Shown here: positions 2,466-7,551 of the stretch, in pieces
How positions within the stretch are numbered: position 1 is the first letter of the stretch
Layout: each line of letters begins with the position of its first letter
DNA from: Nitrospinae bacterium RIFCSPLOWO2_12_FULL_45_22
Lineage (GTDB): Bacteria; 2-12-FULL-45-22
NCBI GenBank assembly: GCA_001803565.1
Contig: MHDQ01000010.1
Coordinates: 1-9,616, forward strand
DNA: 9,616 nucleotides
Direction of reading: 5' to 3'
Position numbers and translations under genes: made by a program
The notes under the pieces: generated by a model
What the model was told of the DNA's origin: nothing
Seen by the model: the letters and a program-made list of their open reading frames with translations, nothing else
The model's database searches: none

Positions 2466-3278
2466 CTATGCTTTACGGCCTGCCTCCTGAAGTAAAGACT
2501 CCATAAGGGATAATTCTTCCCTGGTATTAACCCCTAGAATCTCTACTGGCTGATCACTCTTATACCCTATAACTCTTAAGCCCCTTTGGTGAGCTATATG
2601 GACGATATCAGTGAGATAATACTCCTCCTGCTGATTATCCTGGTTGATTAATCTGAGGGCTTCATAAAGGAAATCTTTCTGAAAGCAATAGATACCGCTG
2701 TTGATCTCCCTGATTTTCCGCTCCTGTGGGCTGGCATCCTTTTCTTCTTCTACTCTTATCACTTCTAACCCCTTACCCCGTATTACCCGACCATAACCTT
2801 TCGGATCATCCAGGTCAGCAGTGAGGAAGGATACAGTGGCCTTTTGAGAGCGATGGATATGGACAAGCTGGACTAAACTCCCCGAGGTCAAGAGAGGAAC
2901 GTCACCACTCAACACCATAATCTCACCCATGAAGTCTTTTAATAAGGGGTAGGTCTGGAGCACAGCATGGCCGGTACCCACTTGCTCTTCCTGATAGACA
3001 AACTCTATATGAGTAGTTCGTGATTGTAATTCGTGTCTGTACTTAGTTCTGGAGCAGGGATCCAGGTCAGGGACACGGTTTACGACTGCCCTGACCTCTT
3101 CAGCCTGATAACCAATGACCATTAAAATCCTTTGGGGAGATATTTGCCGAACAGTATATAATAAATATTGGATTAAGGGAATACCGGCCAGGAGGTGTAA
3201 TACCTTAGCCTTGTTTGATTTCATCCGCGTGCCTTTGCCGGCTGCCAGGATAATTACCGCTAACTCTCCCGTTGCCAT
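2466..3278 (-). CDS. glmU: UDP-N-acetylglucosamine pyrophosphorylase, uridylyltransferase domain only (short GlmU)
   Basis: GlmU's N-terminal domain joins UTP and GlcNAc-1-phosphate to make UDP-GlcNAc for peptidoglycan and lipopolysaccharide. Counting from the ATG at 3278 (270 residues), the motifs are LAAGKGTRMKSNKAKVLH (11-28, nucleotide-binding loop with catalytic Arg and Lys), QEEQVGTGHAV (96-106), GDVPLL (125-130), GYGRVIR (161-167), EINSGIY (191-197) and GVNTREEL (248-255). Typical bacterial GlmU has about 450 residues with a C-terminal beta-helix acetyltransferase; here the protein stops right after the first domain, and a separate beta-helix protein is encoded next. Residues 67-90, between AEEVRAVV and IEFVYQEE, are extra compared with ordinary GlmU and coincide with a DNA repeat (3009-3080). 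A TTG at 3281 is an alternative start, but the adjacent ATG is preferred; AAGG (3282-3285) is a weak, very close ribosome site. The gap to metH is about 40 bases, consistent with an operon. Confidence 0.93.
   Translation of the reverse strand: MATGELAVIILAAGKGTRMKSNKAKVLHLLAGIPLIQYLLYTVRQISPQRILMVIGYQAEEVRAVVNRVPDLDPCSRTKYRHELQSRTTHIEFVYQEEQVGTGHAVLQTYPLLKDFMGEIMVLSGDVPLLTSGSLVQLVHIHRSQKATVSFLTADLDDPKGYGRVIRGKGLEVIRVEEEKDASPQERKIREINSGIYCFQKDFLYEALRLINQDNQQEEYYLTDIVHIAHQRGLRVIGYKSDQPVEILGVNTREELSLMESLLQEAGRKA
3009..3080. repeat. Diverged dispersed repeat inserted in frame within glmU
   Basis: This 72-base stretch encodes the extra residues 67-90 of the short GlmU. Its bases 3017-3040 match 5783-5806 in the metH leader at 19 of 24 positions, all five differences being transitions. 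Its GGACACGGT (3071-3079) is identical to 5839-5847. The distance between the two matched blocks is almost the same in both copies (54 versus 56 bases), so this looks like one element of about 63-65 bases present twice. The length is a multiple of three and there is no stop codon in the glmU frame. The match was made by eye. Confidence 0.6.
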
Positions 3279-3310
3279 CAACCTTGGTCCCTATATATTA
3301 AGCATAGCTG

Positions 3311-3360: not shown

Positions 3361-5780
3361 TCCCTAACTAATCTTTTGGCTTTGGTGGCGGCTTCTATAG
3401 CATCTTTCGCATAAGCCTGGGCGCCAATCGCCTGGGCAAAGTCTTCGGTTACTACTGCCCCACCCACCATTATTGGAATAGATAACTGGAGACCCTGAAA
3501 GGCCTCTACTACCCTTTTCATCTCTTGCATGGTGCTGGTCATCAAGGCACTGAGACCTACTATCTGGGGTTGGTATTTCTGCACCGCCGCAACAATCTCT
3601 GGGGTAGGGATATTCCTGCCCAGGTCTATTACTTCAAATCCATGGGTCTCTAAGATTAGCCCCACGATGTTTTTACCAATATCATGGATATCACCATAGA
3701 CCGTAGCCAGGATAACCTTACCCAGAGATTCTATCTCCCTTTCCTTTTCTTTTCTGGTAACTCCCTTTAGGTAATCGAAGGCCTTTTGCACAGTTTGGGC
3801 AGCAAGGATAAGCTGGGGTAAAAATATCTCGTCATTATTAAAGGCCTGGCCGATCTCTTCCAGGATGGGTATTAACCGTTCATGGATAATGGTCATAGGT
3901 TTTACCTGGTCTTTTAGGGCTTGATCTATTAGGGTGATCAGTTCATCGGCATTTCCTTCTTTGACTTTCAGAAGGGCCTCTTTGAGCCATACATTTTCTT
4001 CTTTAACTTCTTTGGTCTCTGGCGGCTTATCCTTGCTAGATATAGGGCGGCAATAGGCTAAATATTTCTCTGCTCGCATATCACGTCCGGTCAAGACTGC
4101 GGCCGCATAAAAGGCCTGCTGGACCAATGGGTCCAGGGGATCAACAATGGCGGCATCCAGGCCGGCTGCCAGGGCCATGGCCAGGAAAGAGGCATTGAGG
4201 AAGTTACGGTTAGGCAGGCCAAAAGATATATTACTAATACCCAGGATAGTAGCAACGGGTAAGTTGGCTTTGATCATCCTTAATGCCTTAAGGGTCTCCT
4301 GGGCCTGTTGGGGCTGGGCACTGACGGCTAGGGCCAGGCAGTCAACCAGGATATCTCGCGGCGGTATCGCATATCTTTGGGCAGCTTCCAGTATCCTCAG
4401 GGCCATAGTCAGCCGCTCCTGCGCTGTTTCGGGCATCCCCTTCTCATCCAGTGTTAAGCCAATAATAGCCGCGCCATATTTCTTTGCCAGAGGTAAAATG
4501 CGATCAAGGCTTTCTGGTTTGGCATTTACTGAATTGATAATGGGCTTACCGGTAGCACTTTTTAAACCCCGCTCCAGTACTTCCGGTAAACTGGAATCAA
4601 TCATAACTGGAATATCTACTAACCGCTGGACCTCCAGTACCACCCTCTCCATCAACTCAGCTTCGTCTATGCCAGGCAAGCCCAGGTTTATATCCAGGAC
4701 CTCTGCGCCCTGCTTTACCTGTTCCTGGGCAGCCTTTTTGACCCAATCCCACCTGCCTTCTTTAAGCTGAGTGGCTAGCTCCGGCTTTCTGGTAGGATTA
4801 ATCCTTTCTCCTACTATAACCGGCATCCTGTCTCTCCCCAGCTCTATCCACCGGGTGCGGCTAGCTAGCCCAGAAAAAGGAATTACTGAACGTCTCAAGG
4901 GCGATAATTCTTTTACCGCCTCCCTAACCGCCCGGACATGAGCCGTCGTACTGCCGCAGCAACAGCCAATAATACTGGTGCCTTCCTGGACAAGCTTTAC
5001 GGCATAATCAGCCATGAGTTGCGGTGAGGCAGGGAAATAGGTACGGCCATCACGTAGCACTGGCATACCAGCATTGGGCTGGAAAGCCAGCTTTTTTTGG
5101 CTGACCCGCTTCATCCGCTGGAATACTTCATATATCTTCTCTGGGCCCAGGCCACAGTTGGCCCCCACCAGATCAATATCCAGGGACCCTAAGATGATAC
5201 AGGCCTCTTCTGGCCCGGTGCCTAGAATGGTTCGCAGATTATCCTGGAAAGTCAAAGTACAGATGATAGGCACCCGTTCAGTGATCTCTCTAACGGCAAT
5301 GATAGCCGCCTTGACTTCTTTGATATCAGAAAAGGTTTCGATAAGGATCAGTTGCGCACCGGCTTTTATACAGGCAGCTATCTGTTCCTTAAAGACCTCC
5401 CGGACAGTATCGAAGCTAAGTTCTCCTATGGGCTCTACAAATTTACCAGTAGGGCCAATAGATGCCGCTACTAAGGCCTTATCCCGCGCTATTTCTCTTG
5501 CCAGGGCAATAGCTGAGGCATTAATCTCCTCCGTTTTATTATCTTGACTATAATGAGATAATTTTATCCTATTGGCGCCAAAGGTATTAGTGGCAATAAT
5601 GTCTACTCCTAAAGCTACATATGCCTGGTGCACCTCCCGTATCCATTGGGGGTGGGTAAGGTTAAGGAGCTCCGGGGCTACATCAGCCGGGAGGCCTTTA
5701 TCCTGGAGCATGGTTCCCATAGCCCCGTCCATGACCAATACCTTTGACTCTAAATATTCAAGGAAAGTATGTCGTTCCAT
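3318..5780 (-). CDS. metH: Cobalamin-dependent methionine synthase, short form without reactivation domain
   Basis: MetH methylates homocysteine to methionine using methyl-tetrahydrofolate with cobalamin as methyl carrier, in the cytosol. From the ATG at 5780 the protein has 820 residues. The homocysteine-binding barrel (about 1-295) holds MDGAMGT (17-23) and the zinc-binding Cys209 (ANCG), Cys274 and Cys275 (in GCCCGS). The pterin-binding barrel (about 320-575) holds VGERINPTR (323-331) and VLDINLGLP (361-369). The cobalamin-binding module (about 595-805) has the helical cap and DIHDIG (697-702), whose His699 is the lower cobalt ligand. Full E. coli MetH has about 1230 residues; the SAM-dependent reactivation domain is absent, as in several anaerobic bacteria, so another protein would have to reactivate it. 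A TTG at 5837 would add 19 residues encoded by repeat DNA; the ATG fits where family similarity begins. The nearest GGAGG (5832-5836) lies about 50 bases upstream, beyond the repeat. The C-terminal tail after AKRLV also comes from a repeat. Confidence 0.95.
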   Translation of the reverse strand: MERHTFLEYLESKVLVMDGAMGTMLQDKGLPADVAPELLNLTHPQWIREVHQAYVALGVDIIATNTFGANRIKLSHYSQDNKTEEINASAIALAREIARDKALVAASIGPTGKFVEPIGELSFDTVREVFKEQIAACIKAGAQLILIETFSDIKEVKAAIIAVREITERVPIICTLTFQDNLRTILGTGPEEACIILGSLDIDLVGANCGLGPEKIYEVFQRMKRVSQKKLAFQPNAGMPVLRDGRTYFPASPQLMADYAVKLVQEGTSIIGCCCGSTTAHVRAVREAVKELSPLRRSVIPFSGLASRTRWIELGRDRMPVIVGERINPTRKPELATQLKEGRWDWVKKAAQEQVKQGAEVLDINLGLPGIDEAELMERVVLEVQRLVDIPVMIDSSLPEVLERGLKSATGKPIINSVNAKPESLDRILPLAKKYGAAIIGLTLDEKGMPETAQERLTMALRILEAAQRYAIPPRDILVDCLALAVSAQPQQAQETLKALRMIKANLPVATILGISNISFGLPNRNFLNASFLAMALAAGLDAAIVDPLDPLVQQAFYAAAVLTGRDMRAEKYLAYCRPISSKDKPPETKEVKEENVWLKEALLKVKEGNADELITLIDQALKDQVKPMTIIHERLIPILEEIGQAFNNDEIFLPQLILAAQTVQKAFDYLKGVTRKEKEREIESLGKVILATVYGDIHDIGKNIVGLILETHGFEVIDLGRNIPTPEIVAAVQKYQPQIVGLSALMTSTMQEMKRVVEAFQGLQLSIPIMVGGAVVTEDFAQAIGAQAYAKDAIEAATKAKRLVRDQRSRIRNKRSAEP

Positions 5781-5782
5781 AA

Positions 5783-5867
5783 TTCGTGACCGTGATCCGT
5801 GTCCGTGACTGTGATCCGAGCCTGTTACTACCTCCAACGGACACGGTCACGTCCCACGGACACGCTC
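5783..5867. repeat. Palindromic TCCGTG-type repeat in the ntrC-metH gap
   Basis: The plus strand reads as repeated units of CCGTGA/CCGTGTCC at 5785-5806, then an inverted GGACACGGTCACG (5839-5851) and CACGGACACG (5855-5864). The two sides can pair as an imperfect hairpin. The block fills the 87 bases between the ntrC stop and the metH ATG. Its interior contains GGAGG on the minus strand (5832-5836), which would be a ribosome site if a start codon lay nearby, but none does. Bases 5783-5847 match the segment inside glmU. Confidence 0.7.
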
Positions 5868-7410: not shown

Positions 7411-7551
7411 GCCACGGATGAACACGGATAGATACAGATTAGGCCACCAAGGCACTAAGTTACTACAAGGGGTGACCTCTTAGTGTCTTGGTGTCTTTGT
7501 GGCAAGAAAGTTAGCTGAGTAATCTATCTTCATCCGTGTGTATCCGTGGTC
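7411..7551. repeat. Nested palindromic element between sensor kinase and regulator genes
   Basis: The outer arms 7411-7440 and 7521-7550 are inverted copies at 23 of 30 positions, with CCACGGAT and ATCCGTGG at the ends. Inside them CCAAGGCACTAAG (7447-7459) and CTTAGTGTCTTGG (7479-7491) form a second inverted pair at 12 of 13 positions. The arrangement would fold as a long interrupted stem. No open frame with codon-like character lies inside it. It accounts for most of the 288-base gap 7308-7595; the rest is AT-rich sequence without a recognisable promoter. It could be a miniature mobile element or a composite of two repeat families, one nested in the other. Confidence 0.8.

Follow-up and report, generated by a model that had tools for sequence, protein, structure and literature searches.

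A palindromic repeat as the probable source of an extra loop in a bacterial GlmU

The short GlmU protein encoded in the window (the whole 9,616-nt stretch under study, from the 3.67-Mb genome of an uncultured bacterium) carries a loop that other GlmU proteins do not have, and the DNA encoding it resembles a palindromic repeat found elsewhere in the same genome. The repeat family exists, the glmU segment scores as one of its members, the match falls exactly at the protein insertion, and the reading frame is open. The best explanation, to which we assign a probability of about 0.87, is that the loop stems from a non-autonomous palindromic repeat with two facing 22-nt arms, which is otherwise dispersed between genes and of which an old copy, now partly decayed, lies in glmU.

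The extra loop of GlmU

The glmU gene (positions 2466 to 3281, minus strand) encodes 271 residues that make up the uridyltransferase domain only. The assignment comes from conserved motifs and the predicted fold, and the protein matches NCBIfam GlmU models with E values down to 1.5e-77 and GlmU entries of the PDB at 1e-57, the GlmU structures being gapped at the loop site. In an alignment of 41 sequences, the stretch from RA to IEFVYQEE has 26 residues in the window protein and 5 to 12 in the 40 homologues, and the spacing from the LAAG motif to GTGHA is 77 to 82 residues in the other homologues. An earlier note on this DNA had described about 24 additional residues. The loop is real, since all 40 homologues (the nearest about 48% identical, from a scan of genome contigs and the alignment) lack it, but the net excess over them is 14 to 21 residues with a mode of 20, and not 24. 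The sister genome, which is 68% complete and is the only other genome of the phylum among those compared, gave no GlmU match.

At the protein level, the insertion spans approximately codons 68 to 90 (positions 3012 to 3080, minus strand). An AlphaFold2 model built from the 41 sequences has a mean pLDDT of 92.3 and superposes on solved GlmU structures; pLDDT falls to about 55 at residues 71 to 90 and exceeds 90 around the insert. The insert follows a helix (60-67) and precedes the strand (92-96) leading into the QEEQVGTGHA motif. The prediction is thus of a disordered loop on a GlmU fold that is modelled confidently elsewhere, which agrees with the earlier suggestion of a surface loop, and we infer that it is flexible, exposed and probably without a function of its own.

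The glmU segment as a copy of the repeat

The first indication of a repeat was a likeness to the leader of metH. Positions 3017-3040 and 5783-5806 are identical at 19 of 24 positions, the sequence GGACACGGT occurs unchanged at 3071-3079 and 5839-5847, and the blocks are spaced by 54 nt in glmU and 56 nt in the metH leader; each of these points, made in the earlier note, is confirmed from the sequence. The segment is a palindromic copy, as proposed there, although its best bounds are now 3019-3084 (66 nt). Its left arm, CGTGATTGTAATTCGTGTCTGT (3019-3040, plus strand), scores 17.6 bits against a profile of the 22-nt arm trained on 11 arms with both window copies left out, a score reached at 21 of 2.31 million positions when 1.16 Mb of the genome was scanned. 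Partial matches were sought with R1, a sequence model of the arm from which the metH arms were excluded, but which includes an identical arm from another contig. R1 gives 7.3 bits for the left arm and 8.7 bits (model positions 7-21) for a partial right arm at 3070-3084 on the minus strand, whose reverse complement is CGTAAACCGTGTCCC; a fixed-length scan placed the right-arm partner at 3056-3077, also on the other strand. Across the entire window, R1 ranks four matches highest: both arms of the metH copy together with glmU 3070-3084 and 3019-3037, which lie on opposite strands.

It could be argued that this GlmU simply has a lineage-specific extension of the ordinary kind, which resembles the repeat by chance. 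The length of GlmU does vary at this site, the M. tuberculosis loop being longer than that of S. pneumoniae and the homologues themselves differing over the range given above, and the glmU copy is degenerate. However, both arms lie within the protein-level insertion in opposite orientation, and not one of 20,000 dinucleotide shuffles of the insert attained their pair score of 28.1 bits, the best shuffle scoring 17.7. Among approximately 39,600 coding windows, the lone higher scorer is a repeat copy (C129) lying under a spurious antisense ORF, which was for that reason rejected as a coding copy. The two coding windows next after glmU score 26.8 and 23.4 bits, followed by one at 11.6; the two are most likely other copies of the family that overlap ORFs, such as the copy in contig C179 described below. 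For coding windows of the genome sample that are unrelated to the repeat, the highest score is 11.6 in a fixed 84-nt scan and 14.4 when wider spacing is allowed, and 40 column-permuted profiles run over 1.16 Mb gave a maximum of 26.2. Coincidence is very unlikely given that so high a pair score falls exactly within the protein-level insertion, and we consider a chance extension to be highly improbable.

The glmU copy appears to be old. All five differences between 3017-3040 and the metH copy are transitions, with T for C or A for G in glmU, as fits a copy in decay. The hairpin has also decayed: only part of the right arm is left, and the insert, folded as coding-strand RNA, does no better than shuffles (z -0.1). 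When the glmU insert itself was used as a DNA query against the source genome, no second copy was convincing because the insert is too degenerate, hence the need for the arm profile. The same loss of stem bears on the proposal that the inserted hairpin has been kept for an action at the DNA or RNA level, such as slowing translation. In this genome, gene leaders frequently contain palindromes, as that of metH does, but a hairpin that has lost much of its stem and folds no better than shuffled sequence makes such a role very doubtful.

Under the insertion model, the element would have been copied or moved into glmU, which would have stayed open because the consensus arm has no stop codon in five of six frames and the segment, at 66 nt, is a multiple of three. 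The peptide would have been tolerated as a flexible loop without its own function because the length of GlmU varies naturally at this junction of a helix and a strand, and the inserted DNA would have drifted afterwards. No target-site duplication is visible; glmU was examined as an occupied site alone, and its inverted arms are present.

The CGTG palindrome family

The copy in the metH leader (5785-5864) is much better preserved than that in glmU. Its left arm, CGTGACCGTGATCCGTGTCCGT (5785-5806, plus strand), and its right arm (5843-5864, minus strand) score 24.6 and 14.5 bits with R1, the arm pair scores 62.5 bits, and the predicted fold has an energy of -37.2 kcal/mol. When this repeat was used as the query, matches were found in ten other contigs of the source genome, almost all of them intergenic. 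The aligned copies share an arm of constant length, 22 nt, with the consensus CGTGnCCGTGATCCGTGnCCGT, usually followed by a short loop and the reverse complement; arm-to-arm lengths are about 43-80 nt, and two-arm copies form strong hairpins, at -17 to -42 kcal/mol. The earlier claim of a dispersed repeat is therefore borne out by the genome search, with a match far above chance.

The family appears to be specific to this genome. Arms with at most two mismatches occur at 13 sites in the source genome, at none in a control with the pattern read backwards, at none in the sister genome, and at no more than one site in each of 143 other genomes. The arm sequence model gave at least 26 matches genome-wide, with 150 of 1,051 candidates scored. 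In all, the source genome has copies of the family at about 20 further places, whereas the 144 other genomes, the sister included, essentially lack it. A detailed scan covered 1.41 of the 3.67 Mb, and there the CGTG palindrome is otherwise intergenic except for the C179 copy (L160, 1095-1190), which makes up the C-terminal tail of an ORF resembling a flippase. One further candidate for a coding copy, C83:2294-2348, was rejected as intergenic.

About eight CGTG copies (loci L166, L217, L266, L283, L285, L213, L165 and L284) have inverted repeats of other families on their outer sides (shuffle p <=0.03), and these outer repeats include the sequences ACCACAAAG, CACCGCAGAG and TAAATCCTAA. The nested arrangement at these eight loci looks as if palindromes insert into each other. 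The source genome has five Y1 transposase (Y1_Tnp) genes; no family arms were found near them, the best arm score in those loci being 3.6 bits.

The neighbouring sugar nucleotidylyltransferase

Directly downstream of the short glmU lies a gene (1188-2387) for an archaeal-type bifunctional sugar-1-phosphate nucleotidylyltransferase/acetyltransferase, the product of which passes the TIGR03992 Arch_glmU cut-off (305.9 versus 292.1 bits). This enzyme may supply the acetyltransferase step or render glmU partly redundant, and with such a homologue encoded next door, glmU, called essential in the earlier note, may not be so. An alternative that accepts the insertion as real is that it survives since GlmU is redundant or being lost, its activity being provided by the neighbouring enzyme. 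The score of that enzyme and the missing acetyltransferase domain of the short GlmU are consistent with this idea. On the other hand, the glmU ORF is intact, all residues invariant across the 40 homologues are retained, and the prediction for the remaining fold is highly confident. We regard survival through redundancy as unlikely, though as a better candidate than either chance resemblance or a retained hairpin.

Palindromes of other families within genes

Insertion of a palindrome into a gene in frame is further supported by the behaviour of other palindromes in the same genome. HsdM and HsdR (contig C44, L235, 2017-3690 and 12443-14842) contain in-frame palindromes of the GGAATGCGGAATGC / GCATTCCGC type; the HsdM inserts are located where the structure 5ybb has just a few residues, and they are absent from 5ybb. 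Fold z values are -6.1 for one HsdM insert and -4.7 in HsdR. The thymidylate kinase gene tmk (contig C58, L298, 3577-4434) has a RGQGSGIRGPQRSP insert, absent from 2pbr as a 12-residue gap in the alignment, and a long KNKEPRTKNQEQRTK tract near its C-terminus. The KNKEPRTKNQEQRTK tract matches several intergenic stretches. Further candidates for in-frame palindrome or word repeats occur in DegT, AddA-like, oxidoreductase-acyltransferase and lytic transglycosylase genes. A strong palindrome in the linker of dnaX (coding, z -6.3) was not counted as a proven insertion; the linker of the sister genome is unrelated but of similar length. A plain count of intergenic repeats inside ORFs provides no clean statistic because a reversed control also matches (11 versus 4 clusters with at least three queries), and protein alignments were therefore relied on for the extra cases.

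Given these other families in frame in hsdM, hsdR and tmk, glmU is probably one of a series of in-frame palindrome inserts. The insertion proposed in the earlier note is supported, and it is not an isolated case. A broader proposal, which we judge to have roughly an even chance of being correct, is that this lineage runs a Rickettsia-like process at larger scale, in which several unrelated families of short palindromes nest in one another between genes and are time and again accepted in frame by conserved genes, among them those for glmU, thymidylate kinase, HsdM and HsdR. If so, hairpin insertion would be a steady maker of new protein loops outside the groups where it was described.

Relation to known repeats

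The best descriptions of in-frame palindromic repeat insertion come from Rickettsia and a small number of REP-rich genomes. Rickettsia palindromic elements (RPEs) are found as in-frame inserts in genes, and the one insert-bearing enzyme that was tested was active (PMC2229807, PMC10969869). The glmU case had been likened to these insertions with an unrelated repeat, and the parallel holds as one of the same kind of event: in both systems, dispersed palindromes lie between genes and in frame within conserved protein genes, and here a dispersed intergenic family is accompanied by an in-frame copy absent from homologues. The present family is nevertheless set apart by its host, its length and its described ends. 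The host is not Rickettsia but a bacterium with a 3.67-Mb genome and one other phylum member among the genomes compared; the elements are about 50-85 nt long, with arm-to-arm lengths of about 43-80 nt, whereas RPEs are 105-146 bp (PMC2229807); and the repeats of R. conorii end with CGTC (PMC3733652), in contrast to CGTG at the arm end here.

Other short repeats offer partial parallels. GTAG- and CGTC-tagged REPs are also short palindromes, some of them wholly within ORFs, where they often contribute 20-30 residues, their presence in loops or linkers being considered neutral (PMC3733652). Here, however, the arms are 22 nt long rather than stems of 5-13 bp, they carry CGTG, and the copies inspected have no GTAG, CGTC or consistent tag. 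The family also differs from RAYT-mobilised REPs, as none of the five Y1_Tnp loci holds a repeat-flanked RAYT (Y1 transposase) gene. Bacterial MITEs such as ERIC, Correia/NEMIS and YPAL are small, non-autonomous elements with long hairpins that are mostly intergenic and sometimes form in-frame fusions (PMC2229807). The present repeat resembles them in its small size, non-autonomy, hairpins and mostly intergenic copies; it has inverted arms, but fixed termini, TA ends and a target-site duplication were not definable from the copies here. The repeat in glmU is neither an RPE (host, length) nor a GTAG/CGTC REP (tag), nor is it linked to a RAYT, and we therefore class it as a new family that illustrates an already known type of event.

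A clear case with a family specific to one genome, in a phylum that has hardly been sampled, shows that intergenic hairpins can give rise to protein loops elsewhere too. In-frame palindrome insertion accounts for one type of puzzling gap seen when proteins derived from metagenomes are aligned, and several more pairs of donor repeat and recipient gene can be compared within this genome.

Other repeat features of the window

No Rfam match was found within the window. On the coding strand, the loop of the metH-leader palindrome (5807-5842) contains the sequence GGAGGT some 50 nt ahead of the likely ATG (5778-5780), and the repeat may have displaced a ribosome-binding site. Intergenic inverted repeats of other families occur in the window at 1071-1146 and 7412-7549. 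In the latter, outer arms (CCACGGATGAACACGGAT) surround what appears to be a second, different palindrome (CACCAAGGCACTAAG / CTTAGTGTCTTGGTG).
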